Shown here: in pieces, positions 39,514-58,558 of the stretch
Layout of the letters: every line of letters starts with the position of its first letter
Position numbering within the stretch: the stretch's first letter is position 1
Notes under the pieces: model-generated
Told to the model about the DNA's origin: nothing
Databases searched by the model: none
What the model saw: only the letters and a program-made list of their open reading frames with translations
Assembly (NCBI RefSeq): GCF_017349315.1
Contig: NZ_JAFMPP010000014.1
Location: forward strand, 1 to 64,000
DNA length: 64,000 nt
Source of the DNA: Jiella flava
GTDB lineage: Bacteria > Pseudomonadota > Alphaproteobacteria > Rhizobiales > Rhizobiaceae
Direction of reading: 5' to 3'
Translations under genes and position numbers: made by a program

Positions 39514-39864
39514 ATGAAGCTTTCGAAGTCTCGCTCGGCCATGCTTGTTCTGGCCTCCGCCATCGCCCTTGTGGCGGCGCCTGCCATGGCCGCCTCGGCG
39601 AACCATATCGTCGACGTTACGCTGAAGGACCACAAGTTCTCGCCGGACAAGATCGAGGTGCCGGCCGGCAAGCCGTTCAAGATCCGCTTGAAGAACGTCG
39701 ACAAGTCGGCGGACGAGTTCGACTCCGACGATCTGCGCGTCGAAAAGGTCGTCGGCGGCGGCAAGACCAGCATTATCCGCGTTCAGGCGCTGAAGCCGGG
39801 AACCTACAAGTTCATGGGCGAATATCATTCGGCGACCGCTCGCGGCGTCGTGATCGCGAAGTAA
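39514..39864 (+). CDS. Periplasmic cupredoxin-domain protein
   Basis: A 116-residue protein with a signal peptide cleaved near AAPAMA-AS. The mature cupredoxin-like domain shows VTLKDHKFSPDKIEVPAGKPF and the late GTYKFMGEYHS. This resembles the small copper-binding or EfeO-cupredoxin-type protein that accompanies FTR1 permeases. It lies 4 bases before the permease gene. A copper-dependent oxidation of ferrous iron before uptake is a reasonable inference; conserved Cys is absent, so type-1 copper is not certain. Confidence 0.85.
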   Translation: MKLSKSRSAMLVLASAIALVAAPAMAASANHIVDVTLKDHKFSPDKIEVPAGKPFKIRLKNVDKSADEFDSDDLRVEKVVGGGKTSIIRVQALKPGTYKFMGEYHSATARGVVIAK

Positions 39865-39868
39865 CGCC

Positions 39869-40708
39869 ATGCTGGCGGCGTTCGTCATCGTCTTTCGTGA
39901 GGTCATCGAGGCCGGTCTGGTGGTCGGCGTCGTGCTGGCCGCCACCCGCGGCCTTGTCGACCGGGGCCGCTTCATCGCGGGCGGCATCTTGGCGGGATTT
40001 CTCGGGGCGTGTGGCGTCGCTTTCTTCGCCGGTGCGATTGCCGACCTGTTCGAGGGCTCCGGGCAGGAGACCTTGAACGCTGGTGTGCTGCTCGTCGCCG
40101 TGGCCATGCTGATTTGGCATAACGCCTGGATGGCGAGTCACGGCCGCGAACTCGCGCAAAGCCTCAAGGCCGTCGGCGAGGAGGTGAAGGCGGGCCGTAA
40201 GTCGCTGATGGCGCTCGCCATCGTCTGCGCCGTGGCGGTGCTGCGCGAGGGCTCGGAAGTGGTGCTTTTTCTGTACGGTGTCGCGGCGGCGGGCCAGACG
40301 ACGGCCAGTAGCATCATCGTCGGCGGGCTGATCGGCATTGCCGGCGGCGCGGTGATCTCGGCACTGCTCTATCTCGGTCTGATCGCCATTCCGCTGCGCT
40401 ATCTCTTCGGCGTCCTCTCGGCGCTGATCACCCTGCTTGCGGCGGGGCTGGCGGCCCAGGCGATGCGCTTTCTGGCCCAGGGCGGCTGGCTGGCGAACTG
40501 GGTGACGCCGCTGTGGAACACCAGCGGCATCTTGTCCGAACAAAGCATTCCCGGCCGCATCGCCCATGTGCTCTTCGGCTATGCGTCGCAGCCTTCGGCA
40601 AGCGAGCTTCTGGCCTATGGAATGGTGATCGTGATCATGCTGGTGATCCGGCGGATCGTCGCCGAGGGCCGCGGTCACCAGCCGCAGGGCGCGCGCATAT
40701 CGGCCTGA
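39869..40708 (+). CDS. FTR1-family iron permease
   Basis: A 279-residue protein with about seven helices. Two REGLE-like motifs are present: REVIE (residues 10-14) and REGSE (near 128), the iron-binding signatures of the FTR1/EfeU family. The length is typical of EfeU-type permeases. With the cupredoxin gene it forms a two-gene iron uptake operon; the peroxidase partner EfeB is not in the window. Confidence 0.92.
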   Translation: MLAAFVIVFREVIEAGLVVGVVLAATRGLVDRGRFIAGGILAGFLGACGVAFFAGAIADLFEGSGQETLNAGVLLVAVAMLIWHNAWMASHGRELAQSLKAVGEEVKAGRKSLMALAIVCAVAVLREGSEVVLFLYGVAAAGQTTASSIIVGGLIGIAGGAVISALLYLGLIAIPLRYLFGVLSALITLLAAGLAAQAMRFLAQGGWLANWVTPLWNTSGILSEQSIPGRIAHVLFGYASQPSASELLAYGMVIVIMLVIRRIVAEGRGHQPQGARISA

Positions 40709-40850: not shown

Positions 40851-40926
<76 letters not shown>

Positions 40927-41014: not shown

Positions 41015-41446
41015 TTATGCGGCCGCTGCGACGACGTGGCCGCTGGCGGTCAGGATTTCGGCTGCGCGGCCGGCATTTTCGATTTTCACGAACAGATAAT
41101 CGGTGTCGAAGGTCGCGATCAGCAGGACCGCGATCTTGGCTGTCGCGAGCGGCGTGAGCACGGCAGCGGCTATGCCGGTCTGATCGAAGGCGAAGGGACC
41201 GAGAAACTGGAAGCCCCGCCAGCCGGCATCGGCGCGAATCGTCGCCGGCACCCGGTCGGCGCGGCAGAGGATCGACAGCTCCTCCGCGCTGCGGGCGATC
41301 GAGACGAAGCCGGAGCCGTCCGCCCAGTCGGGCAGGGCGGCATCCGGATCCAGACGCGCGATGGCGTAGGCGCCGTCGAGGACGCGCAACGTCACGCTGA
41401 CCGGTTCACCGCCAGGGGCGGTCGAAGCGTCGCTTGCGGCCGTCAC
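41015..41446 (-). CDS. ACT-domain protein
   Basis: A 143-residue cytoplasmic protein with one or two ACT-like domains (VLDGAYAIARLDPDAALPDWA, then GPFAFDQTGIAAAVLTPLATAKIAV). Small stand-alone ACT proteins of this type bind amino acids, but their roles are unknown. Overlaps the upstream secreted-protein gene by 4 bases, so it closes the minus-strand operon. Confidence 0.85.
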   Translation of the reverse strand: MTAASDASTAPGGEPVSVTLRVLDGAYAIARLDPDAALPDWADGSGFVSIARSAEELSILCRADRVPATIRADAGWRGFQFLGPFAFDQTGIAAAVLTPLATAKIAVLLIATFDTDYLFVKIENAGRAAEILTASGHVVAAAA

Positions 41447-42288
41447 AGGGCTTGTTCGGCGGCGCGGCCGAGGGCGAACGCCCGCTGCTCGATCAGCGTC
41501 GGCACCTCGCAGACATAGCTCAAAGACTGGCGGCGCTCGTGGAAGATCCGGGTGTCCCAGAGCAGCTCCTGGCGGGCGGCGTCGAGGGCGGTGGGGTTGG
41601 CCGTCGGGTTGTCCTGACGGGTGTCGAGCGTCTTGATTTCCCCCCGCAGCTTGGCCGCCAGCGCCTTTTGCTTGGCGCCGTAGCGTTCGATTCCGCGCAT
41701 CACCTGGTCGCGCTCGGTGTTGAGGCGATTGAGCAGCATCACCACGATGGTCCCGGCTTTTGCGCCCCGATCGGCCTTGGGATATTTGGACACGAAATCT
41801 GCGACGGCCGTTTCGGCCTCATCGAGCGGCATGCGGCGGGCTACGACCGTGTCGACGAGGCGGCGCATATCCGCGTCCGGGGTGATCGCGCTGAGCTTGG
41901 GGAGCGGCGGACCGCCCCAGATCTGGCCGGGGAAAATCTCTTCCACCCGCCGCTGCACACAGGGCCAGTTGGTCTTGCCGGGCGGTGGCGCCTTGGCGAA
42001 GGCCATCGGGTTCTGCACCGTTTGTCCGCCACCGATGACGGTGCTCGGCTTGGCGGCGGGATTGGTGGCCGGCGGCCGGGCAGCGTTGGCGTCCGGTGCA
42101 TTGCCGGTGCCGGCCGGAGCGTTGGTCGGCGGCGGCCCGGGCAGGACGAAGCTTTTCGGGATCGGCTTCGGGCTCGCTCCGTCCTGGGCGGATGCGGCGA
42201 GGGGAGCGAGGAGAACCATCGCGCCCGCCAACCCGCCGCAAAGCGTCGCGGCCAAGATCCTCCGGCTCATCCTGATGCTGCGCGCCAT
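41443..42288 (-). CDS. Secreted proline-rich protein of the PQQ/lut-type cluster (LutG-like position)
   Basis: A 281-residue protein with a signal peptide (LAGAMVLLAPLAASAQ). A Pro/Ala/Asn-rich segment follows (about 30-85), then a conserved-looking helical domain with KTNWPCVQRRVEEIFPGQIWGG and a coiled-coil-like stretch. I do not recognise a named domain. The ATG at 42288 has GGAGGAA six bases upstream. It follows the ABC permease directly, the same place as an exported protein in the Methylobacterium lut cluster as I recall it. Confidence 0.8.
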   Translation of the reverse strand: MARSIRMSRRILAATLCGGLAGAMVLLAPLAASAQDGASPKPIPKSFVLPGPPPTNAPAGTGNAPDANAARPPATNPAAKPSTVIGGGQTVQNPMAFAKAPPPGKTNWPCVQRRVEEIFPGQIWGGPPLPKLSAITPDADMRRLVDTVVARRMPLDEAETAVADFVSKYPKADRGAKAGTIVVMLLNRLNTERDQVMRGIERYGAKQKALAAKLRGEIKTLDTRQDNPTANPTALDAARQELLWDTRIFHERRQSLSYVCEVPTLIEQRAFALGRAAEQAL

Positions 42289-42335
42289 GATTGTTCCTCC
42301 CATGATCAATTGTCGGCGCCCACCGATCGATGCGC

Positions 42336-43187
42336 TCACTGGCGCTTTCGGCTGATCAGGCCACGGGCCGGATCATAGGCGATGATCGCGCCGCCAAGAA
42401 AGACCGCGGTGCAGCCGACAACGATCACGAAGGCGTCGAGGTTGAACTGCTGGTAGAGCGCGAAGCGAATCAGCTCGACCGCGTGAGTGAACGGATTGAA
42501 GACGCAGATCTGATAGAGAAGCGGACTCGACTCGCGCACCCGCCAGAGCGGATAAAGTGCGGAGGAGGCAAAATACATCGGAAAGATCACGAAGTTCATG
42601 ACCCCGGCAAAATTCTCCAGCTGCTGGATCAGCGAGGAAAGCAGCATGCCGAGGGCGCCGAGCATCAGCCCGGCGAGCATGATCGCCGGCAGAGCGTAGA
42701 GATAGCCGATCCAATCCGGCTGCACCTCCCAGAACCAGGCAATGGCGAAAAAGACGTAGACCTGCAGAATGCCGACCGCGACCCCGGCAAAAAGCTTCGA
42801 GACCAGCAGGAACCACCGCGGCAGCGGCGAGACCAACAGCGTCTTCATCGTCCCGGTCTCGCGGTCGTAGACCATCGACAGCGACGACTGCATGCCGTTG
42901 AACAACAGGATCATCCCGACCAGGCCCGGCGCGATATAGACCTCGTAGAGCACGTAGGTCTCATAAGGGGGGATGATCGAGACGCCGAGCACCTGGCGGA
43001 AGCCGGCGGCGAAGATGAAGAGCCACAGCAGGGGCCGCACCATCGCCGAGACGAAGCGCTGGCGCTGGTGCAGAAAGCGCAGCGCCTCGCGCCAGATGAT
43101 GCCGCCGGCGCAGATCAGATAGGCCGAGAGCGGAAAGCCTTTTCGCGTGCTGAGCGGCGGTGCGTGGGGAATGGTCGCATCGCTCAT
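42336..43187 (-). CDS. ABC-2 type permease, PQQ-alcohol-dehydrogenase-associated (PedC/LutF-like)
   Basis: A 283-residue membrane protein with six helices of the ABC-2 exporter fold (SAMVRPLLWLFIFAAGFRQV, then NSMQSSLSMVYDRETGTMK-like loop, then FNPFTHAVELIRFALYQQF). This is the permease of the transporter found next to PQQ-dependent alcohol dehydrogenases. It overlaps the ATPase gene by 4 bases. Substrate and direction are not established; it was linked to lanthanide handling in Methylobacterium. Confidence 0.88.
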   Translation of the reverse strand: MSDATIPHAPPLSTRKGFPLSAYLICAGGIIWREALRFLHQRQRFVSAMVRPLLWLFIFAAGFRQVLGVSIIPPYETYVLYEVYIAPGLVGMILLFNGMQSSLSMVYDRETGTMKTLLVSPLPRWFLLVSKLFAGVAVGILQVYVFFAIAWFWEVQPDWIGYLYALPAIMLAGLMLGALGMLLSSLIQQLENFAGVMNFVIFPMYFASSALYPLWRVRESSPLLYQICVFNPFTHAVELIRFALYQQFNLDAFVIVVGCTAVFLGGAIIAYDPARGLISRKRQ

Positions 43188-44044
43188 GCGGCAGCCTCCT
43201 GCGGGCCCGGCGGCCGTGTCCGAATTCCGGTCAGCCGCGTGAAGGCGTCGCCGATGGTCTTGGCGCCTTCCGTTGCGACAATTTCGGGAACGAAACCTTC
43301 GGCGAGCACCTGGCCGTGATGCAGGACAACAACGCGGTCGCTGTCGCCGATCTCGTCGATCAGATGGGTCGCCCAGAGCACGCTGACGCCCTCTTCGCGC
43401 ACCAGCCGGCGCACTTCGGACAAGATCGCGGCGCGCGAGCGGATGTCGAGCCCGACCGTCGGCTCGTCGAGCAGGATCAGGCGTGGGCGGTGCATGAAGG
43501 CGCGCACGATCTCGATGCTGCGCAGCTGGCCGCCGGAGAGGTTGCGGGCCTTTTCGCGCAGCCGGTTGCTCAGCTCCGAGCTGGCGAGAATCTCGGCGAT
43601 CCGGGCTTTCGCCGGCTTGCGCGAGATGCCGTGCAGGGCGGCGTGGTAGACGAGGTTCTGGCTGATCGACAGGTCGAGATCGAGGGTGCGGGCCTGAAAT
43701 ACCACACCGAGGCGGCGGAGTGCCTCGCCCGGCTCGCGTGTGAGATCGTGGCCGAGAATGCGGATGGTGCCGTGGCGAACGTTGAACAGCCGGGTGATCA
43801 GCGAAAACAGTGTCGACTTGCCGGCGCCGTTCGGCCCGAGCAGGGCGGTGAAGGAGCCCTGCGGAACGTGGAACGACACGTCGTTGAGCGCCTTGCGTTG
43901 GCCATAGGCATGGCTGACGCCTTCGACGGACAGGGCCTTGATGCTGGCGTCGCGCGGGTTGGTCGTGGCGGTGATGCTGCCGTCCGGCATGGCGTCGGTC
44001 TCGTGTCTTTGTGCGGTCCCACCCGGCACTTTAGCAAAAATCAT
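43184..44044 (-). CDS. ABC transporter ATP-binding protein, PQQ-associated (LutE-like)
   Basis: Up to 286 residues. Walker A GPNGAGKST, Q-loop region VVFQARTLDLDLS, signature LSGGQLRSIEI, Walker B LILLDEPTVGLD and the switch His in WATHLIDE are all present. The start is uncertain: the ATG at 44044 or the one at 43990 (MPDGSITA) could be used; neither has a strong ribosome site. Forms one transporter with the permease downstream. Confidence 0.9.
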   Translation of the reverse strand: MIFAKVPGGTAQRHETDAMPDGSITATTNPRDASIKALSVEGVSHAYGQRKALNDVSFHVPQGSFTALLGPNGAGKSTLFSLITRLFNVRHGTIRILGHDLTREPGEALRRLGVVFQARTLDLDLSISQNLVYHAALHGISRKPAKARIAEILASSELSNRLREKARNLSGGQLRSIEIVRAFMHRPRLILLDEPTVGLDIRSRAAILSEVRRLVREEGVSVLWATHLIDEIGDSDRVVVLHHGQVLAEGFVPEIVATEGAKTIGDAFTRLTGIRTRPPGPQEAAA

Positions 44045-44124
44045 CGGGCACGGGACGTCCGTGACGGGAGGCCGCGGCGATTCAACGCCACGGCCTGTTC
44101 GTCAAATCTGCGGGCGGCAAGGCC

Positions 44125-44760
44125 TTAAGGGACCACGGTGATCGTGCCTTCGACGACGTGGTTCTTGTCGAGATTGCCGAGATGCCAGTGGTAGCGGCCC
44201 GGCCGGACGGTCTGGAACTGCACCGTGATCGTGCCGTGGGAATCATATTCGAGCCAGGCCGGCGCGCCCGCCATGTGGACTTCGAGATCGTTGATGACGA
44301 TCTGGTTCATCCAGACATTGCGGAAGAAGTCCGGCGCGATGAACTTGTATTCGATGTCGCCGGCCGACTTGATGTCCCAGCGATAGGGCTGGCCGGCACG
44401 CAGGTAGAAGTCCTTGTGGTTGGTCTGGAACGAGTTGCCGTCGACGCCCATCACCAGCGGGGTGATGATCTGCGTCGTCAGCGTCTTCTTCGGCAGGCCG
44501 ATCTGGTCGCCATTGAGGGCCGCCGCCGGCATCAGGTCCGATCCGGGCGGAATCGTCAGCCCGTCGGCCGCGGGCACCATCTTGGCGCCGTGGCTGACAT
44601 TGTCGTCATCGTCGGAATCGCCGGCTTTGGCTGTCGCGGCGGATGCCGGCTTGTCGCCGTCGTCGTCACTGCCGGATTGAGCCAGCGCGCGGCTCACCGG
44701 TGCGCTGGCAACGCCAAAGGCGAGCGCCGTGGCGAGGATGGGCAGCCAGGGTGATTTCAT
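44125..44760 (-). CDS. Secreted cupredoxin-like protein with acidic linker (LutD-like position)
   Basis: A 211-residue protein with a signal peptide (ATALAFGVASAPVSRALA). A very acidic stretch lies just after it (about 27-52, including SGSDDDGDKP and GDSDDDDN). A beta-rich cupredoxin-like domain follows, ending GRYHWHLGNLDKNHVVEG. No Cys is present in the mature part, so a type-1 copper site is unlikely; Asp clusters or His could bind Ca, lanthanide or another metal. The start at 44760 has GGGAGG upstream. It is transcribed with the ABC genes. Confidence 0.8.
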   Translation of the reverse strand: MKSPWLPILATALAFGVASAPVSRALAQSGSDDDGDKPASAATAKAGDSDDDDNVSHGAKMVPAADGLTIPPGSDLMPAAALNGDQIGLPKKTLTTQIITPLVMGVDGNSFQTNHKDFYLRAGQPYRWDIKSAGDIEYKFIAPDFFRNVWMNQIVINDLEVHMAGAPAWLEYDSHGTITVQFQTVRPGRYHWHLGNLDKNHVVEGTITVVP

Positions 44761-44826
44761 TGTGTCCCTCCCGAAAGTTGTCCCGTCTGTTCGTCGTGAC
44801 GATGCAAAGCGCCGCTCTGGTGGATT

Positions 44827-44881
44827 GAATTCGACATTTGAATCCCAGCTGGGGCCGTCCATTGAATCCAATGTCAAATTC
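44827..44881. promoter_or_regulatory. Large imperfect dyad upstream of the cupredoxin-like gene
   Basis: GAATTCGACATT (44827-44838) and AATGTCAAATTC (44870-44881) form inverted arms with 11 of 12 matches, 31 bases apart. The spacer contains CAGCTG. It lies 67-121 bases before the start of the cupredoxin-like gene on the minus strand and is AT-richer than its surroundings. It could be an operator or a cruciform/hairpin in the leader. Confidence 0.5.
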
Positions 44882-44983
44882 GAAAAAATCCACGAGGATC
44901 ATAACCTTGGCGCGTGGTCACTTCGATTCCGACATGAGCTGAACAGTCTCCACGACACGGTATCAAATGCCGGAATCGAACCA

Positions 44984-45955
44984 CTAGTTCGGCGTCACTG
45001 CGACGCCCCAGGGCTGTTGGCCCACCTGAACGGATTTGATCACCTTGTCCGCGGCGACGTCGACGATCGAAATGTCGTTGGACAGGCCGTTGGTGGTGAA
45101 GAGGTATTTCTGATCCGGCGAGAACGCCATGTGCCAGACACGCTGGCCGACCAGCAGATAGTTGAGCACCTCGTAAGTCTTGCCGTCGACGACGGCGACG
45201 CGGTTGGCAGGTCCGAGCGCGATATAGGCCCTGGAGCCGTCCTTGGTGATCTTGATGCCGACCGGTTGGATCGCCTCGGAGCGGATGCCGGGGATCTGGA
45301 AGGTGATCTTGTGCTTGATCTGTTTGGTCTTGGCGTCGATCACCGCCACCGTGCCGCCGATCTCGGACGACACCCAGACCTCCGAGCCGTCAGTCTTGAA
45401 CTGGGCGAAGCGCGGCCGTGAATCGACCAGCACATTGGCGACGATCTGCTGGCTCTTGCGGTCGATGAAATGGGCCATATTCGTCGTTTCCGACGTATTG
45501 ACGATCGTCTCGCCGTCCGGCGAAACGCCCATGCCCTCGGGCTCGACACCCACAGGCACCTCGGCGATGCGCTCGCCGCTCTTGGTGTCGATGATGGTGA
45601 CGAGATTGTCGTTCTCATTCGCCGCATAGAGCTGATCGCCGTTCGGCGAGAGGGCGAGCAGCTCCGGGTCCGGCCCCGACGGCAGTGTGTTCAGGAAGGC
45701 GTGGGTCTTGGTGTCGTAGACTTGGATCGTGTCGCTGTCGCTGGTGCAGATATAGACTTTCGAGCCGTCCGGGCTGATCGCGATGCCGCGCGGACGCTGG
45801 CCGACCTTGAAGGTATCGACCACCTTGAAGCCGTCCGAGTCGAGCACCGTGACGTCGTTGCCCTTCTCGTTGCTGACGAAGATCTTGTAGGCGAAAGCGG
45901 GACTGGCCGACAGCACGAGCGCGGTGGCGAGCACCGTCAAAGACAATGATCTCAA
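44984..45955 (-). CDS. YVTN beta-propeller protein, PQQ-dependent-catabolism associated
   Basis: A 323-residue periplasmic protein with a signal peptide cleaved after ASPAFA. Seven-bladed repeats of the YVTN type follow, for example FVSNEKGNDVTVLDSDGFKV, then GIAISPDGSKVYICTSDSDTIQVYD. This family marks the gene clusters of PQQ-dependent alcohol catabolism. A TTG start at 45955 is indicated by GGAGG five bases upstream. Transcribed on the minus strand with the ABC genes 224 bases further on. A role in holding cofactor, metal or protein in the periplasm is inferred. Confidence 0.9.
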   Translation of the reverse strand: MRSLSLTVLATALVLSASPAFAYKIFVSNEKGNDVTVLDSDGFKVVDTFKVGQRPRGIAISPDGSKVYICTSDSDTIQVYDTKTHAFLNTLPSGPDPELLALSPNGDQLYAANENDNLVTIIDTKSGERIAEVPVGVEPEGMGVSPDGETIVNTSETTNMAHFIDRKSQQIVANVLVDSRPRFAQFKTDGSEVWVSSEIGGTVAVIDAKTKQIKHKITFQIPGIRSEAIQPVGIKITKDGSRAYIALGPANRVAVVDGKTYEVLNYLLVGQRVWHMAFSPDQKYLFTTNGLSNDISIVDVAADKVIKSVQVGQQPWGVAVTPN

Positions 45956-46352
45956 TCATTCCTCCCTGGAGCCGAACCCGAAGCAGCATGCGACGATCGC
46001 CATCGCACCTCCGGCCGCCGGGACTGGCCTTTGTCTGTCTCGATCCGTCGATCTTGCGAAGACCGGCCGATCAATCCCGATGATGGCTCGACGCCCGTCC
46101 GAACTGGGCCTTGGCCATTCAAGCGCGGGGCGCTGGCCCTGTCGTCGCGGATTGACTCCCGTTCCGCGGCGGTCTCGACGATCGCGTCCGAAGATTGTGT
46201 TTGGTGGCCCTTGCGGTGCCATCCGGTCCGATCCGGCTTGTCCTTGGGAGAGACGAGCCGGATCGGACCGGCGACAATGCAAGTGCTAACGTAAGGTTTC
46301 ATCCGAGCGCAACAGGAACTGTTCCCGGAATGGCCGAGCCGGTCAAACGAGC
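45956..46352. other. 397-base intergenic region with a strong palindrome
   Basis: No supported gene: several overlapping open frames in both directions reflect GC-rich sequence only. It contains the palindrome at 46223-46271 and, near its left end, the ribosome site of the propeller gene. It separates two same-strand genes and should hold the propeller promoter plus the 3' end of the kinase-regulator transcript. Confidence 0.6.
46223..46271. repeat. Perfect 16-bp inverted repeat
   Basis: CCGGTCCGATCCGGCT (46223-46238) pairs with AGCCGGATCGGACCGG (46256-46271) without mismatch, loop 17 bases. Each arm itself contains the repeated unit CCGATCCGG/CCGGATCGG. It lies 82 bases after the response regulator stop, with no T-run. 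Possible factor-independent 3' end, or a protein-binding site. Confidence 0.75.
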
Positions 46353-46988
46353 TCAGTGGCCGGCCTCCAGCATCCGGCCGCCCTTGGTCTCCAATGCGAA
46401 GCGGACAAGGTCCGAGGTCCGCTCGATGCCAAGCTTTTCCTTCATGCGGGTGGAGGTGTTGGCGACCGTCTTGTAGGCGACGCCGAGGCCATCGGCGATT
46501 TCCGACAGGCTCTTGCCTTCACCGAGCATGTGCAGGATCTGCAGCTCGCGTCGGGTCAGGTCGCTGACGCCGGTCTCCCGGGTCGTGTGCTCGCTCATCA
46601 GGGCGGCGGTTTCGCTGTCGACATAGGATTCGCCCGCCATCGCCTTTTCCAGCGCGATCAGCAACTCGTCGGAGGGGGCGCTTTTCGAGACATAGCCGAG
46701 TGCACCCTCACGCCTCGCCGAAACGGCGTAGACAAGGTCGGAATACATCGAAAAGATGACGATCTTCGCCTTCGGATCGTCGGCCCGCAGGCGCCGCAAA
46801 ACGTCGAGGCCGCTGCCGTTCTTCAGATTGATGTCGAGGATGGTGATGTCCGGCCGCCTCTTGCGGAACTCAGCAAGCGCTTCGGAGGGGCTTTCGGCCT
46901 CGAAGATCCCGGTGATCGCCAGATCCTCGACGAGTCTGCGGATACCGTCCCGAACCACCTTGTGATCGTCGACGATCAGGATGTTCAT
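46353..46988 (-). CDS. NarL/LuxR-type response regulator
   Basis: A 211-residue regulator. The receiver domain (1-120) has the acidic pocket VDDH, phosphoacceptor Asp52 in ILDINL, and the Lys in YVSKSAP. The C-terminal LuxR-type helix-turn-helix begins at LTRRELQILHMLGEGKSLSEIADGL. It overlaps the histidine kinase gene by 4 bases, giving a two-component pair. Similar pairs (ExaDE/ErbR type) regulate PQQ alcohol dehydrogenase genes in other bacteria, consistent with the context. Confidence 0.93.
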   Translation of the reverse strand: MNILIVDDHKVVRDGIRRLVEDLAITGIFEAESPSEALAEFRKRRPDITILDINLKNGSGLDVLRRLRADDPKAKIVIFSMYSDLVYAVSARREGALGYVSKSAPSDELLIALEKAMAGESYVDSETAALMSEHTTRETGVSDLTRRELQILHMLGEGKSLSEIADGLGVAYKTVANTSTRMKEKLGIERTSDLVRFALETKGGRMLEAGH

Positions 46989-48448
46989 TGCCCGTCCTTC
47001 ACTGCTGTCGTCGCGCTGGCCGCGGTGGACTCACTAAGCTCCATTCTATCAGCCGGTATGTCGGTCTCCGCAAGGGCGCTGGCTGAAAGCGGCACGCCGC
47101 CCGAGACCCGCACGCCACGCGGCCGGCGGATCTCGGCAACCGTCATATCGCCGCCCGCTGCCTCGATCCGCTCGCGCATGCCGACCAAGCCGAAGCCGCT
47201 TTCCGGCGCCGCATCGGCAAAACCGCCGCCATCGTCTTCAACCGCGAAATACAACTGTGCGCCGCGCGCCTCGATCCGTAGTGTAATCGTGCCGGGATCG
47301 CCGTGGCGAAGCGCATTGGTGAGTGCTTCGCGCACGGCGCGATAGACCAGGGTCTCGATCGTCGCGCCGAAATCGCCGTCGGGAAGCGCAGCATCGAAGG
47401 CGACGTTCGGATGGCGCATCGCAAGGTCGGCGATCATTTCCTCGATACTGCCCTTCAGGCCAAGGCCGGGCATGGTGCCGGGCCTCAGATTGCCGAGAAT
47501 GCGCCTCAATTCGCGCCGGGCTTGGTGAGCGGCCGAGACGATCGCTGCGGCCCGCTCGGCAATCGCCTCCGCGTCGGTGGCCGAAGTGTTCGCCGCCCGG
47601 CGGATGCGCGACGCGTCGACGTCGATGGCAAAGAGCAGCGGGCCGACGTCGTCATGGAGATCGCGCGCCAGTTGCGCCCGCTCCTCGTCCTCCAAATGCA
47701 GCAGCCGGTCGGAAAGGCGTCGGTTGCGCGTCGAGATCGCGTCGAGCCGGTCCATCAGCGTGTTGACGCCGTGGGCGAGCTCGCGCATTTCCGGCGGCCC
47801 TTCGGGCATGACCTTCGCGGCGTAGACGCCGTCGCCGATGCGCATGAAGGCGGTGTGGATCGCTCGCAGCGGCCGCAACGCGCGGTCGGCGACCACCCAG
47901 ACCGCGCCGAAGGCGAGCGATAGGAACAAGACCAGCAGGCCGAAGGACGTCAACAGATCGAACCAGGCATCGGTCAGTTCATTGCGCGGATCGACGACGA
48001 TCGCCGCCGCGGTGATCGGTTCGGAGGCCGCCGTCAGCGGCATGATGGTGGTCAAGGGATCGGCATCGAGCAGTTTGACGAACCACTCGGGCAGGGCGGT
48101 CGTGTCCTCGCCGAGCACCGACTGATCGCGAATGACGCCGAGCGAGTCGATCAAAAGAATCTTCACCCGGCGGTCGCCGTTGAAGGTGCGCACAAAGCCT
48201 GCAAGCTTCGCCGGAACGTCCCGCGAGGCCGGCAGTTCGGCGACGAGCTGGGCGACCCGGTTGGTTGCCACGCTGCGTGCCGCCTCGAGTTCGGTTCGAA
48301 TGGTGTCGCGGGCCTGAAAGAAGGTCAGCACCGAGCCGATGACGACGATCACCACGAATGCGACGGCCAGCGTGACGGCGAGCCGGGCCTTCAGCGACAT
48401 CGAGCCACCGCGCGAAGGGGACGGAATGGCCGATGTCTGCTGCCTCAT
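46985..48448 (-). CDS. HisKA_3-type sensor histidine kinase
   Basis: A 487-residue kinase. Helix 1 (VTLAVAFVVIVVIGSVLTFF) is followed by a periplasmic sensing part of about 130 residues and helix 2 (LLTSFGLLVLFLSLAFGAVW). A HAMP domain and the dimerisation region come next, with the phosphoacceptor His in QLARDLHDDVGPLLF. The ATPase shows ALTNALRHGD and GFGLVGMRERIEAAGG. ATG 48448 has GGGAG upstream; earlier starts are less likely. Paired with the regulator downstream; the signal may be periplasmic alcohol, metal or cofactor state. Confidence 0.92.
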   Translation of the reverse strand: MRQQTSAIPSPSRGGSMSLKARLAVTLAVAFVVIVVIGSVLTFFQARDTIRTELEAARSVATNRVAQLVAELPASRDVPAKLAGFVRTFNGDRRVKILLIDSLGVIRDQSVLGEDTTALPEWFVKLLDADPLTTIMPLTAASEPITAAAIVVDPRNELTDAWFDLLTSFGLLVLFLSLAFGAVWVVADRALRPLRAIHTAFMRIGDGVYAAKVMPEGPPEMRELAHGVNTLMDRLDAISTRNRRLSDRLLHLEDEERAQLARDLHDDVGPLLFAIDVDASRIRRAANTSATDAEAIAERAAAIVSAAHQARRELRRILGNLRPGTMPGLGLKGSIEEMIADLAMRHPNVAFDAALPDGDFGATIETLVYRAVREALTNALRHGDPGTITLRIEARGAQLYFAVEDDGGGFADAAPESGFGLVGMRERIEAAGGDMTVAEIRRPRGVRVSGGVPLSASALAETDIPADRMELSESTAASATTAVKDGQ

Positions 48449-48539
48449 GGACGCTCCCATTTCGCACTCAACCGGGACATTCCGGCGGGTCGCCGTGACG
48501 GAGGTTCCACCGGATCTCAAGCGACCGATATGGTAGCGG

Positions 48540-49802
48540 CTATCGATCGAACTTGCAGGTGGTTTCCGGCTTGTCGAAGCCGAGCGTGTCGAGTTCGGAG
48601 GTCTGGTGCAGGAACCCCTCCTGCGGCGAGGTCGAGACGACCGACTTGTAGGTCGCGAGCAGGATCGGCTGGCGCAGCTGCCAGTCCCAATCGCGGAAGG
48701 TCAGGCGCTGGCCTTTGAAGGCGGCGACGGTGAACTTGTCGCTGCGGATGAAGGCGTCGAGCTTGGCCGGATCGGCGGACTGGGTGCGCGAGGCCGCTTC
48801 GCCGATCACCCGCACCGCCGTCCAGGCCTGCATGTCCTTGGCCAGCATCCGTCGGCCCGCCTCGCGCAGGAAACGGCTTTGCATTTGCTCGCCGCCCCAT
48901 TGCTGGCTGGCCGGATGCCAGGAGGCGGGGACGAGGCCGGCAGTGCCGGCGACGGGCCGCGGAATCCAGGTGCGCCAGGGGATATAGGTGCCGAACACCT
49001 CGCTTTCGTCAGCGACGAGCAGGACGTCGTGATCCGGTAGGCTCTGGAGAAACAGCGGGATCTGCTTTTGCACCAGCGCTTGGCCCGAATCGGTTTCGCG
49101 GGCGCTGCCGCGATCCTCGAAGACCTTTTCGCCGACGATCTTGCCGCCAAATTTCTTGGCCGAACGCTTCAGCGCCTCGGCGAACAGCTTGTCGTTCGGG
49201 TGCGAGCCCTCGACCAGCGCCCAGTTGCGCCATTGCTTCCACATCAGATATTGCGCCAGCCCGTCGGTCAGCATTGAGCGCGACGGCGCGATGTGAAACA
49301 TGTTGTCGCGGCAGTCCTTGTTGCGCAGGCGGTCATCCTCCGCACCGGCATTGAGGACGATCGCGCCCTTGGCCTTGGCGAGATCGGCCGCCTTCAGCGT
49401 GTCGTCGGCGGACAGATCGGTGACGATGTAGTGATCGCCGCTATCGAGCATCTTCTGTACCGGCGCGGCGACGTCGTCGCCCGGCTTGATCGTCACCGGA
49501 TCGAGCACGAATTTTTGGCCCATGAAGGATCCGGTGGTGTCGTTATCCTTGATTGCCACCTTGGCGCCGGCGAGCCCAATATTTTCCGGTGGCACGTCGA
49601 GTACCGACAGGGCGAGGGTCGGCTCGTAGCTGCGCAGATAGCCGATCCGGACGGTTTCCATCGTCTTCTGGCCAGCGACTGGCGCGGCGGTGGTGCCCGC
49701 GGCCTGTTGGGCGAACGCCGATGGTGAAGGCTGAACAGCGATCAAAAGTGACGCAAGGGCGAACGGCAGCAGCCCGCCGGCAAAGCGACGACGATCGAAC
49801 AT
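48540..49802 (-). CDS. Periplasmic ABC substrate-binding protein, PQQ-ADH associated (LutA-like)
   Basis: A 420-residue branched-chain-amino-acid-type binding protein with a signal peptide (LLPFALASLLIAVQPSPSAFA). The body shows ETVRIGYLRSYEPTLALSVL and later MLTDGLAQYLMWKQWRNWALV, matching the binding protein of PQQ-dependent alcohol dehydrogenase systems. Such proteins lack the usual importer permease; here the only ABC permease nearby is of exporter type. 91 bases separate it from the kinase gene. Divergent from the DUF gene at 49923, so the 120-base gap holds the promoters. Confidence 0.9.
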   Translation of the reverse strand: MFDRRRFAGGLLPFALASLLIAVQPSPSAFAQQAAGTTAAPVAGQKTMETVRIGYLRSYEPTLALSVLDVPPENIGLAGAKVAIKDNDTTGSFMGQKFVLDPVTIKPGDDVAAPVQKMLDSGDHYIVTDLSADDTLKAADLAKAKGAIVLNAGAEDDRLRNKDCRDNMFHIAPSRSMLTDGLAQYLMWKQWRNWALVEGSHPNDKLFAEALKRSAKKFGGKIVGEKVFEDRGSARETDSGQALVQKQIPLFLQSLPDHDVLLVADESEVFGTYIPWRTWIPRPVAGTAGLVPASWHPASQQWGGEQMQSRFLREAGRRMLAKDMQAWTAVRVIGEAASRTQSADPAKLDAFIRSDKFTVAAFKGQRLTFRDWDWQLRQPILLATYKSVVSTSPQEGFLHQTSELDTLGFDKPETTCKFDR

Positions 49803-49922
49803 GGTGATTTTCCTCCCGCTTGGCGCGCCGGGCGGCGATCGGGCCCGGTGCGGCCTTCATTGCTCCTTCCGATTCCGCGCTCTATCACAAGGGCTTGGGC
49901 ACAGCGCTCAGGGAGGAGCCGA

Positions 49923-50477
49923 ATGTTTGCGCTTATGATGTGTTGCGGAGTGAACCTTTTGAGGCAAGCGCGACTTTTTCCCGTTGTTCTCGCCTTAGGG
50001 GCCGTGACAGTAGCGGGGCAGGCGATGGCGGCCGCGCAGAAGGTCGCCGTCTTCGACTTCGAATTGATCGATTCGAGCCTGGAGGGATCGATGATGGGCG
50101 ACGACGCGGCGCAGGATGCCCGGCTGAAGCGCATGGCGCCGATGCTGCGCGAGGATATCGGCGCGCTGCCGGGATATGAGATCGTCGATATCCAGCCGGT
50201 GGAAAAGCAAGCCGGGGACGCCAATCTGCAGAGCTGCGGCAACTGCGCGCTGCGCTTTGCCGGCCAGATCGGTGCCGATGTCGCCGTGGTCGGGACCGTG
50301 CAGAAGGTCTCCAACCTCATTCTCAACATCAACGCCTATGCCTTTGATATCAAAAGCGGCAAGACGATCGCGCGGGGCAGTGCCGACATTCGCTCCAACA
50401 CCGATGAAAGCTGGGATCGTGGCTTGCAATATCTGTTTAAGACCCGGTTGAAGGCGCAGCTGGAGAAGGCCCGGTGA
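49923..50477 (+). CDS. Secreted DUF2380/DUF3280-type protein (LutB-like position)
   Basis: A 184-residue protein with a signal peptide (LFPVVLALGAVTVAGQAMAA). The mature domain has KVAVFDFELIDSSLEG at its start, a CGNCA pair (SCGNCALRFAGQIGADVAVVG) and the late ARGSADIRSNTDESW. The family is of unknown function, common beside PQQ-associated binding proteins. The ATG has GGGAGGAG upstream. Overlaps the furan-aldehyde synthase gene by 4 bases, tying the periplasmic set to the cofactor genes. Confidence 0.8.
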   Translation: MFALMMCCGVNLLRQARLFPVVLALGAVTVAGQAMAAAQKVAVFDFELIDSSLEGSMMGDDAAQDARLKRMAPMLREDIGALPGYEIVDIQPVEKQAGDANLQSCGNCALRFAGQIGADVAVVGTVQKVSNLILNINAYAFDIKSGKTIARGSADIRSNTDESWDRGLQYLFKTRLKAQLEKAR

Positions 50478-54622: not shown

Positions 54623-54845
54623 AGGTCGCACTGCCCACTTGCCCTATCGCGCTCTAGCTGCGGTGTTGCGGCTCGATCTATGACTCGGCGGTCTGCAACT
54701 TTGGCATCGGATCGGCGAACAGTTCGTGACTGAGCGAAACCATCCTGCTCTCAAGGCATTAACCCTGAAATTTCGAACCGTTCCAAAATCGGTCGCGGTC
54801 GCGGAGCCGCGCCTTAGGGGCGAAAACGAAGGGCGAACTTTACCG

Positions 54846-55355
54846 ATGAAATTGACCATCAACGAGGTCGAGCACGACCTCGATATCGACACGCGCACGT
54901 CTTTGCTCGACGTTTGCCGCGATCATTTGGGCCTCACGGGCTCGAAGAAGGGATGCGACCACGGCCAGTGCGGCGCCTGCACCATGCTGGTCAATGGCCG
55001 CCGCATCAATTCCTGCCTGACACTCGCCGTGATGCACGAGGGCGATGTGATCACCACCATCGAGGGTCTCGGCAATCCGGACGATTTGCATCCGATGCAG
55101 GAGGCGTTCCTCCATCACGACGGCTTTCAATGCGGCTATTGCACGCCGGGGCAGATCGTTTCGGCCGTCGGCATGCTCAGCGAGGTCGCCGACGGCTGGC
55201 CGAGCCACGTCAGCGCCGACGTCAAGAATGGCACCTCGCTGTCTGGCGACGAGATCCGCGAGCGCATGAGCGGCAATATCTGTCGCTGCTCGGCTTATCC
55301 GAACATTGTCGACGCGATCGAGACCGCCAGCGCGAAGATGAAGGAGACGGCATGA
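54846..55355 (+). CDS. Aldehyde oxidoreductase, 2Fe-2S subunit (PaoA/XdhA-like)
   Basis: A 169-residue protein with the plant-type ferredoxin cluster (Cys37, 42, 45, 57) and the second 2Fe-2S domain (Cys96, 99, 146, 148; [10 protein letters not shown], then [11 protein letters not shown]). This is the standard small subunit of xanthine-oxidase-family enzymes. No Tat signal is visible, so the complex probably works in the cytoplasm unless another subunit carries one. Overlaps the FAD subunit gene (ATGA). Confidence 0.95.
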
Positions 55356-56323
55356 GACCCTTCGAATACACCCGCGCCAGCGATGTCGCCGAAGCCGGCC
55401 GGCTGACCGGCCGCTTCATCGCCGGCGGCACCAACCTCCTCGATCTGATGAAGCTGGAGGTGGAGACGCCGGCCAAACTCGTCGACATCACCCGTCTGCC
55501 GTTGCGCGATATCGAGGCGACCGACGACGGTGGCCTGCGGATCGGGGCTCTTGTCAGCAATTCCGATCTTGCTGCCGACAGCCGGATCCGCAACGACTAC
55601 GAGGTTCTGTCGCGGGCGGTGCTCGCCGGCGCCTCCGGCCAGCTGCGCAACAAGGCGACCACCGGCGGCAATCTTCTCCAGCGCACCCGTTGCGGCTATT
55701 TCTACGAGACCTCGCAGCCCTGCAACAAGCGTGACCCGGGCTCCGGATGCGGCGCGATCGGCGGCTTCAACCGCATTCACGCCATTCTCGGCGTTTCCGA
55801 GCATTGCATTGCGACCCATCCGTCGGACATGGCGGTTGCCATGCGGGCGCTCGACGCCAAGGTCGAGACACAAAAGGCCGATGGCTCGACGCGCATCCTC
55901 GCGCTTGATGATTTCTACCGGCTGCCGGGCGACACGCCCGATGTCGAGAACGCGCTCGAAGCCGGCGAGCTGATCACCGGCGTGCGCTTGCCGAAGCCCG
56001 TTTCCGGGTCGCATCGCTATCGCAAGGTTCGCGACCGCGCATCTTATGCCTTCGCGCTGATATCGGTCGCTGCGGTCGTGCGGATGGACGGTGGTACGAT
56101 CGCCGACGCCCGCCTGGCCCTCGGCGGCATGGCGCCTATGCCCTGGCGCGACACCGCGGTGGAGAAAGCGCTGATCGGCCAGGAGCCGTCGATGGCGACC
56201 TTCGAAAAAGCCGCCGACATCCTCCTCGCCGATGCCAAGGGACAGGGCGAGAACGACTTCAAGATCCCGCTCGCACGGCGCACGTTGAAAGCGGTGCTGG
56301 CCGATGCCACGAAGGGAGCGTAA
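55352..56323 (+). CDS. Aldehyde oxidoreductase, FAD subunit with 4Fe-4S insertion (PaoB-like)
   Basis: A 323-residue FAD-binding protein with [17 protein letters not shown] and the TTGGNLLQ motif. An insertion holds four cysteines (114, 124, 133, 152; motif [20 protein letters not shown]), like the extra 4Fe-4S cluster of E. coli PaoB. This places the complex in the PaoABC group rather than classical xanthine dehydrogenase. Translationally coupled to its neighbours (3 bases to the next gene). Confidence 0.93.
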
Positions 56324-56326
56324 TCG

Positions 56327-58558
56327 ATGATGACCAAGCACGTGATGAACGAGCCGATCGGCGAGACCCGCCTTGATCGCAACACTCAAGGTGTGATCGG
56401 CAAGGGCGTCGACCGCTATGAGGGCAAGCTCAAGGTCTCGGGCAAGGCACCCTATGCCTACGAGCATCTGATCGGCGAAGACGTCGCCTATGGCTTCGTG
56501 GTCGTCGGACCGGTCGGCCGGGCGCGGGTGACGACGATCGACGTCGAGCGGGCGCTCGCCGAACCGCGCGTCCTAGCCGTCGTCACCGGCGACGCAATCA
56601 TGCGATCCTCGGCGCAGCCGATGTCACCGGCCGGCCAGACGATGGACGGCGAGATCTTCCATTACAATCAGCCGGTCGCCCTTGTCGTTGCCGAGACCTT
56701 CGAAGCGGCCCGCTCGGCGGCGCGACTGGTCAAGGTCGAATATGAGGCCCAGGACGGGCGCTACGAAATCGAGAGTCGGCGAGGCAGCGGGCGGGCGTCA
56801 GACACAGGTCCGATGGCCGCCGATACGGAGCGTGGCGACTTCGAGAAGGCTTTTGCCGAGGCCGAGGTCCAGTTCGACCAGACCTATCGCACGCCGTCTT
56901 ACCACGCCGCAGCGATGGAGCCACACGCATCCGTCGCCAAATGGGATGGCGACAGGCTGACCGTTTGGTCGTCCTGCCAACTGCTTGAAACCAACATCCA
57001 GCAGATCGCCAATGGCGTCGGCGTGGAGGTTTCGAAGGTCCGCCTGCTCAGCCCCTATATCGGCGGCGGATTCGGCTCCAAGCTCGGCATCGGCCCCGAC
57101 GCCGTTCTCGCCGCCCTCGGCGCCCGCGAGACCGGCCGGCCGGTCAAGCTGGCTTTGACCCGGCAGAACGTTTTCCAGGCGACGTCGCGGCGCGGCGAGA
57201 CGATCCAGCGGGTGCGGATCGGTCTGACCAAGGCGGGCCAGATCACCTGCATCGGCCATGAGACCGAAACACCGAACTCCGAGGGCGAAGGCTTCTTCGA
57301 GCCGTCGGGCATTTCGACCAATTTCCTTTATCCGGGGAAGGATCGGTTGGTGACCCATCGGGTGATCGCCTCCGACGTTCTGATGTGCTCGGCCGTGCGC
57401 GCGCCGGGCGAGGCCACCGGCATGCTCGCCACCGAATGCGCGCTCGACGAACTGGCCGAACAGTTCGGGATCGATCCGGTCGCCTTCCGCCGAATGAACG
57501 AGCCGGAGAAGGACCCGCAGGAGGATGTGCCGTTCTCCTCGCGCAAGCTGCTCGACTGCATTGAGGAAGGCGCCAAGCGGTTCGGCTGGGCGGATCGTCC
57601 GGCCACACCCGGAAGCCGCCGCGAGGGTGAGTGGCTGATCGGCTACGGCATGGCCTCGGCGAGCCGGGCGAATTCGCTGATGGAATCTTCGGCCGAGATC
57701 GCGATGAGCCCCGAGGGCCGGGCGACGGTGAAAACCGCGATGACCGATATCGGGACCGGCACCTATACGATCCTGCAGCAGATCGCCGCGGAGATGTTGG
57801 GCCTGCCTCTCGACCACGTCGATGTTTTGCTCGGCGATACGTCACTGCCGGAATCCTCCGGTTCCGGCGGATCCTGGGGGGCGAATTCGGCCGGCTCCTC
57901 GGTCTATGTCGCCGCCGAGGCGATGATTAAGGAATTCGCCAAGCGCCTCGGCGTCGAGGCCGACGGCTTGACCCTCAAGGATGGCCACGCCATCGCCCAC
58001 AACCGGCAGATCCCGTTCTCCGAGATCCTCAAGGGTGAAACGCTGACGGTAACCGGCAAGATCGAGCCGGGCGACACCGCGGACAAGACCAATCAGGCGA
58101 GCTATGGCGCGCATTTCGCCGAAGTCGCGGTCAACGCGACCACCGGCGAGACCCGCGTGCGACGGCTGCTGATGGTCGGGGCCGCGGGGCGCATTCTCAA
58201 CGAAAAGACCGCCACCTCGCAGTGCTATGGCGGCCAGATCTGGGGCATCGGCTACGCCCTGGAGGAAGCGCTTGTCGTCGATCCGCGTAACGGCCTGATC
58301 GTCAATCACGACCTTGCCGAATATCATGTGCCTGTCCAAGCCGACGTGCCGAAGCTCGATGTCGTGCTGCTCGAAGAGCGCGACCGGTATGCCAGTCCGC
58401 TCGCCGGCAAGGGCATCGGCGAGCTGGCGATCGCCGGCGTCGGCGCGGCGATCAACAACGCCATCTTTAACGCCACCGGTGCGCGCATCCGTTGCTATCC
58501 GGTGACCATGGACAAGCTGCTGCCGCATTTGCCGGACGAGGTCAGCGCCGCCGCCTGA
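56327..58558 (+). CDS. Aldehyde oxidoreductase, molybdenum cofactor subunit (PaoC-like)
   Basis: A 743-residue large subunit. Motifs: N-terminal GVIGKGVDRYEGKLKVSGKA, the molybdopterin loop PYIGGGFGSKLG, SAVRAPGEATGMLATE and the active-site Glu in KGIGELAIAGVGA. The length matches PaoC. PaoC-type enzymes oxidise aldehydes, including aromatic and furan aldehydes, at a molybdenum site. The gene cluster lacks the XdhC/PaoD-type maturation factor. It lies among H4MPT and methylofuran genes; the physiological substrate is an open question. Confidence 0.95.
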   Translation: MMTKHVMNEPIGETRLDRNTQGVIGKGVDRYEGKLKVSGKAPYAYEHLIGEDVAYGFVVVGPVGRARVTTIDVERALAEPRVLAVVTGDAIMRSSAQPMSPAGQTMDGEIFHYNQPVALVVAETFEAARSAARLVKVEYEAQDGRYEIESRRGSGRASDTGPMAADTERGDFEKAFAEAEVQFDQTYRTPSYHAAAMEPHASVAKWDGDRLTVWSSCQLLETNIQQIANGVGVEVSKVRLLSPYIGGGFGSKLGIGPDAVLAALGARETGRPVKLALTRQNVFQATSRRGETIQRVRIGLTKAGQITCIGHETETPNSEGEGFFEPSGISTNFLYPGKDRLVTHRVIASDVLMCSAVRAPGEATGMLATECALDELAEQFGIDPVAFRRMNEPEKDPQEDVPFSSRKLLDCIEEGAKRFGWADRPATPGSRREGEWLIGYGMASASRANSLMESSAEIAMSPEGRATVKTAMTDIGTGTYTILQQIAAEMLGLPLDHVDVLLGDTSLPESSGSGGSWGANSAGSSVYVAAEAMIKEFAKRLGVEADGLTLKDGHAIAHNRQIPFSEILKGETLTVTGKIEPGDTADKTNQASYGAHFAEVAVNATTGETRVRRLLMVGAAGRILNEKTATSQCYGGQIWGIGYALEEALVVDPRNGLIVNHDLAEYHVPVQADVPKLDVVLLEERDRYASPLAGKGIGELAIAGVGAAINNAIFNATGARIRCYPVTMDKLLPHLPDEVSAAA

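Follow-up and report, generated by a model that had tools for sequence, protein, structure and literature searches.

What is transported, and what is sensed, by a gene set of dehydrogenase-linked transport type that lies in Jiella flava with no dehydrogenase beside it? The set occupies positions 41015..50477 of a 64,000-nucleotide stretch (the window; C5:1-64000 in our numbering of a 4.16 Mb genome of 49 contigs, 99.99% complete). The original prediction placed a probable lanthanide transport (lut-like) cluster here, and the gene set is as it described, with all ten open reading frames (ORFs) present in the window's ORF list. We read the operon as a lut/PedA1A2BC-type lanthanide import system with an embedded two-component pair that senses lanthanide ions (Ln3+) or methanol status, at a probability of about 0.72. 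The core of this system is known; its layout is a variant.

Four proteins carry the assignment, 4/4 scoring above curated NCBIfam cut-offs for the ATP-binding cassette (ABC) family linked to pyrroloquinoline quinone (PQQ) dehydrogenases. On the minus strand lie a LutA/PedA1-type substrate-binding protein (48540..49802; TIGR03863, 482.9 bits against a cut-off of 413.6), which is the single match of its family in the whole genome, a PedA2-type YVTN β-propeller in the LutB position (44984..45955; TIGR03866, 515.8 bits against 287.3), a LutE/PedB-type ATPase (43184..44044; TIGR03864, 344.6 bits against 302.25) and a LutF/PedC-type ABC-2 permease (42336..43187; TIGR03861, 399.6 bits against 241.35). 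The same gene order is found near a PQQ methanol/ethanol dehydrogenase in an annotated Rhizobium plasmid and near XoxF5 and one-carbon (C1) genes in an annotated Phyllobacterium plasmid; it agrees with xoxF-linked lut loci except for an inserted two-component pair and an appended ACT gene. These gene identities and their order are established here. The lut-type assignment largely stands, and neither outcome named beforehand as refuting it (best matches to ped/exa-type alcohol clusters alone, or a genome with no XoxF- or PQQ-type dehydrogenase) was observed. Two of its details are not supported: that the pair is a local addition (see below), and that the DUF3280 gene (49848..50477, plus strand) is part of the cluster, since it overlaps a neighbouring C1 gene and belongs with the adjoining C1 genes.

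The window holds no dehydrogenase, as predicted, but two XoxF-type enzymes are encoded on other contigs. Model TIGR03075 finds, at E ≤ 1e-120, only C34:190540-192174 and C23:19042-20652 in the genome. Both contain HDEWDYDGVNEM, whose second aspartate we take to be a lanthanide ligand, and they share 64% identity; the best solved-structure match of the C34 enzyme is the lanthanide-dependent XoxF 6oc5. C34 xoxF has neighbouring genes for a xoxJ-like protein (TIGR03871), a SoxYZ-like carrier and a quinoprotein relay hydrolase, all three above their cut-offs, and for a xoxG-like cytochrome that falls short of its own (TIGR03874, 154 bits against 161.75). Inspection by eye of the stretch listed around the second gene (L039, 9958-11784) turned up no xoxG- or xoxJ-like ORF. 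We compared 30 loci encoding relatives of the binding protein, mostly from Jiella, Aurantimonas, Fulvimarina and Aureimonas (L006 and L032 are apparently one sequence entered twice). Because the stretch fetched also contains xox genes for 11 of these 30, the local lack of a dehydrogenase looks like relocation or rearrangement. In the window and the seven Jiella loci, ACT and FTR1 genes occupy the side where xox lies in other relatives.

A wider sample covered 397 genomes of the order, scored for the binding protein over cut-off and for TIGR03075 at E ≤ 1e-120. The enzyme is present in 123/124 genomes with the binding protein and in 18/273 others, a contrast whose Fisher value ignores relatedness among genomes that are not independent, and which is partly circular, since the TIGR model names derive from the PQQ link. 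The single binding-protein genome without a TIGR03075 match (G232) is 82% complete, and in 6 of the 18 the binding-protein model scores strongly and narrowly misses its cut-off. This co-occurrence, established here, is consistency, not proof. The right flank of the operon adds 4HFCP synthase/FolB, AA kinase, DUF6513 and DUF447 genes. Since three of these (4HFCP synthase, DUF6513 and DUF447) neighbour mch and fae in an annotated Phyllobacterium record, we read the flank as putative formaldehyde-oxidation (tetrahydromethanopterin/methanofuran) genes. Three-part molybdenum hydroxylase genes (2Fe-2S, FAD and molybdopterin-binding; 54726-58558, plus strand) adjoin the C1 genes.

The inserted pair distinguishes the layout. 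Profiles and alignment identify a MoxY/MxaY-like sensor kinase (46985..48400, minus strand; start set by alignment, the listed ORF beginning at 48520) with a periplasmic LapD_MoxY_N-like domain, HAMP, HisKA_3 and HATPase, followed by a LuxR/NarL-type response regulator (46353..46988, minus strand) that shares 4 bases with the end of the kinase gene. The kinase follows the binding protein in 23/30 related loci. Of the seven loci without it there, four stop no more than 2 kb from the binding protein, two are from Fulvimarina and contain no pair and no remaining operon genes within 10 kb, and the seventh is from Prosthecomicrobium. A HAMP, HisKA_3 and HATPase_c core is present in 17/17 aligned kinases, and LapD_MoxY_N matches 16 of them at E ≤ 0.1 (best 8.2e-7). 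Similar pairs also sit beside the lut operon in all four fetched loci of a second, possibly Bradyrhizobium-like family, f35 (L110-L112 and L121), at 30-31% identity to the window kinase and 40-41% to its regulator. Three of the four f35 kinases were scanned, and 3/3 match LapD_MoxY_N at E ≤ 0.01, one over cut-off. A LutH-like receptor is also present in 3/4 f35 loci; the fourth, from G253, has its receptor gene (5299197-5301623) at the margin of the sequence fetched. Two further arrangements occur. In Aurantimonas L015 and L023 a xox cluster follows the pair, which thus lies between binding protein and xox genes, with the propeller-to-LutG genes not seen in the fetched stretch; in Fulvimarina L019 and L024 the binding protein lies beside C1 genes, with other lut genes not within 10 kb.

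The strongest rival holds that the pair serves some unrelated function and is no more than a neighbour of the transport genes. The sensor domain is, by its Pfam name, common to LapD, and several findings, beyond the non-independence and circularity given above, weigh against our reading here. The window kinase scores 17.7 bits against LapD_MoxY_N, under the Pfam cut-off of 25, and two of the three scanned f35 kinases are likewise under it. Of the 15 lut loci compared, the ten that belong neither to f35 nor to the own genus show no such pair (in L123 the regulator alone has a match); the lut operon of Prosthecomicrobium is present without one, and the kinase after the Paracoccus lut operon is of HisKA type with LapD_MoxY_N absent. 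Moreover, the genome has no TIGR03075 match beyond its two XoxF-type enzymes, so an MxaY-type Ca/Ln switch has nothing to switch. Set against these points, the recurrence of the kinase behind the binding protein in most related loci and of a similar pair in every fetched f35 locus argues against an unrelated role, which we hold to be a serious possibility without being the probable one.

Published sensors give the pair some context. In Methylomicrobium buryatense the lanthanide switch requires MxaY, a kinase whose published description includes a LapD/MoxY domain (PMC6115532, PMC5018670). PedS2/PedR2, the lanthanide-response pair of Pseudomonas putida, has locus tags near pedA1A2BC and a different periplasmic region (PMC6839425, PMC6115532). 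A sensor pair beside this transporter is therefore not new in itself. Among the open-licence papers listed on aurantimonad or Jiella methylotrophy and on regulators and kinases tied to lanthanide genes, none is on this arrangement, a MoxY-type pair inside the lut operon of a XoxF-only genome. Our best guess for the kinase signal is lanthanide, then methanol or an enzyme-derived signal.

The second rival concerns direction. The permease is of ABC-2 type, with a match to ABC2_membrane, and ABC-2 permeases are familiar mainly from exporters, a further point against import. It is for this reason that we keep alive a reading in which the ABC-2 pair exports PQQ, a chelator or a PQQ-enzyme maturation factor, with the binding protein and propeller acting separately in the periplasm. 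Second matches to daunorubicin-exporter-type drrB and drrA favour it, as does the association of the system with PQQ enzymes generally, seen in the genome co-occurrence. However, a dedicated binding protein is encoded in the same unit, and the published deletion phenotypes argue for uptake: P. putida without pedA1A2BC needs ~100-fold more lanthanum (La), with growth on the Ca-enzyme unchanged (PMC6839425), and among the lut gene deletions, lutA, lutE and lutF mutants show La deposits in the periplasm (PMC7391723). Export is unlikely on this balance. By analogy with P. putida and Methylorubrum extorquens genetics, the transport would be inward and its substrate lanthanide; lanthanide uptake and sensing are what we infer for the operon. 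An alcohol-oxidation (ped/exa) accessory system for another substrate, to which the description of TIGR03861 as an alcohol ABC transporter permease would lend itself, is very improbable and was dropped as an alcohol-only cluster, since the genome's only two TIGR03075 enzymes bear the XoxF motif, C1 genes adjoin the operon and the P. putida deletion mutants grow on oxidized products (PMC6839425).

Two established lut components were noted as missing from the window. For the TonB receptor LutH this holds genome-wide as judged by a proxy, a LutH-like model built from four receptors near lut operons that were identified by position only. It has no match in the genome, a lack established here that also counts against lanthanide import. 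The control genomes G035, G117 and G253 all gave E = 0, the first two having contributed rows to the model and the third none; of seven other relatives, four gave weak partial matches and three no match. Of the two TonB receptors found in the genome, one is RhtA (1320 bits against a cut-off of 1100) and the other is of a general siderophore type. For lanmodulin, the EF-hand models PF13499 and PF13202 returned only matches under cut-off genome-wide (E 0.05 to 0.85), in a search run with no lanmodulin positive control; no EF-hand protein stands over cut-off.

Several lut operons encode a small secreted acidic protein, weakly PepSY_2-like (5/8 at E ≤ 0.1), with two conserved cysteines and a GQYD[IF]KLN stretch. 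By motif screen it lies between regulator and propeller in 7/30 loci (L007, L008, L011, L012, L018, L021 and L031); in Paracoccus it lies after the cupredoxin-like gene. Examples are L007 13563-13883, L031 13737-14078 and L047 14516-14767. Its profile matches G349 and G397 (control) and has no match in this genome, and PDB sequence searches with the PepSY-like proteins gave weak matches to unrelated proteins only. We regard it as a candidate metal carrier.

Two exported proteins of unusual type complete the minus-strand set. In the LutC/LutD position, 44125..44760 (ORF listed from 44877) encodes a secreted, Asp-rich protein of cupredoxin fold with no cysteine. VIA-align 2 served for a second look at its fold, and a PDB sequence search gave weak matches to unrelated proteins and nothing better. 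A blue-copper function was rejected for want of a cysteine. A run of at least four acidic residues occurs in 21/22 rows of the family alignment (absent in Paracoccus); poly-Asp as a general family feature was rejected, such an acidic run being found in only 3 of the 24 readable loci (of 30), two of the three being this genome and a genus mate. The LutG-position protein (41443..42339) has a low-confidence, proline-rich N-terminal part and a helical C-terminal domain, and two invariant cysteines in the protein; its model, mostly long helices, has a mean pLDDT of 76.5. Its gene overlaps both the permease gene and the ACT gene (41015..41446, minus strand; an ACT_7/A9CJY8-like protein) by 4 bases, and the ATPase and permease genes overlap to the same extent. 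The ACT gene is present in 7/7 Jiella loci and 0/23 other related loci, some of which end before that point.

Beyond the ACT gene lie a tRNA-Trp gene (40851-40926, plus strand), between the FTR1 gene and the lut operon and near the side that differs from the Aurantimonas order, and at 39514-40708 (plus strand) genes for a Cupredoxin_1 protein and then an FTR1-family permease. Among the 30 loci FTR1 stands beside the lut operon in the seven Jiella loci only, with the cupredoxin in five of them; together the two genes may serve iron uptake, and they lie at the end of the operon where xox is found in other relatives.

Lanthanide import would proceed as follows. Ln3+, free or chelated, would be bound in the periplasm by the LutA-like protein, with the propeller, the Asp-rich cupredoxin-fold protein and the LutG-position protein assisting, and would enter the cytoplasm through the ABC-2 permease/ATPase pair. 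The imported Ln3+ could then support the XoxF-type methanol dehydrogenases, and the formaldehyde they produce would enter the C1 pathway encoded beside the operon. The kinase-regulator pair may read periplasmic Ln3+ or methanol status through its MoxY-type domain and set expression of lut, perhaps also of xox genes. An alignment of seven sequences upstream of the propeller and binding-protein genes has conserved stretches and, by eye, no convincing site for a shared operator. A bolder version is tentative and rather doubtful: the MoxY-domain kinase would be a direct periplasmic lanthanide sensor, tuning import and XoxF supply without a Ca-type enzyme of the TIGR03075 family; the basic role of the domain would be metal homeostasis and not the Ca/Ln switch, and Ln3+ would also be carried by the Asp-rich cupredoxin-fold protein, in place of the lanmodulin and PepSY-like protein not found in this genome. 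Lanthanide sensing by methylotrophs is presented as an open question in the available text of PMC5018670 (2016) and PMC9260416 (2022), and a MoxY-type pair inside a lanthanide-transporter operon of a XoxF-only genome offers a clean setting in which to ask whether the domain binds Ln3+.

Among known systems, the lut genes of M. extorquens AM1 (lutA-lutI, lanM), compared through published descriptions and not through their sequences, share the binding protein in first place, exported proteins, ATPase, permease and exported LutG, by the published gene list (PMC7391723). The Jiella operon differs in lacking a LutH-like match and an EF-hand protein over cut-off, in its inserted kinase-regulator pair and in its appended ACT gene. 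Bradyrhizobium and Sinorhizobium have homologues of lutA, B, E, F and G, with LutH weak or not found (PMC12628762), the main text of which uses 'two-component' 0 times. J. flava is a further lineage without a LutH match, as reported for P. putida (PMC6839425) and S. meliloti (PMC12628762). MxaY of M. buryatense and MxaY/MoxY of Paracoccus share, by description, a LapD/MoxY-type periplasmic domain in a histidine kinase; here, by contrast, the kinase comes with a LuxR-type regulator within a transporter operon, and the TIGR03075 enzymes of the genome are all XoxF-type. P. putida KT2440 matches in binding protein, propeller, ATPase and permease, in a lanthanide-response kinase pair with nearby tags and in that no LutH homologue is reported (PMC6839425, PMC6115532). 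Its PedS2, however, is said to differ from the MxaY LapD/MoxY domain (PMC6115532) and its system serves PedE/PedH, whereas the enzymes here are XoxF-type and the pair is placed after the binding protein and before the propeller.

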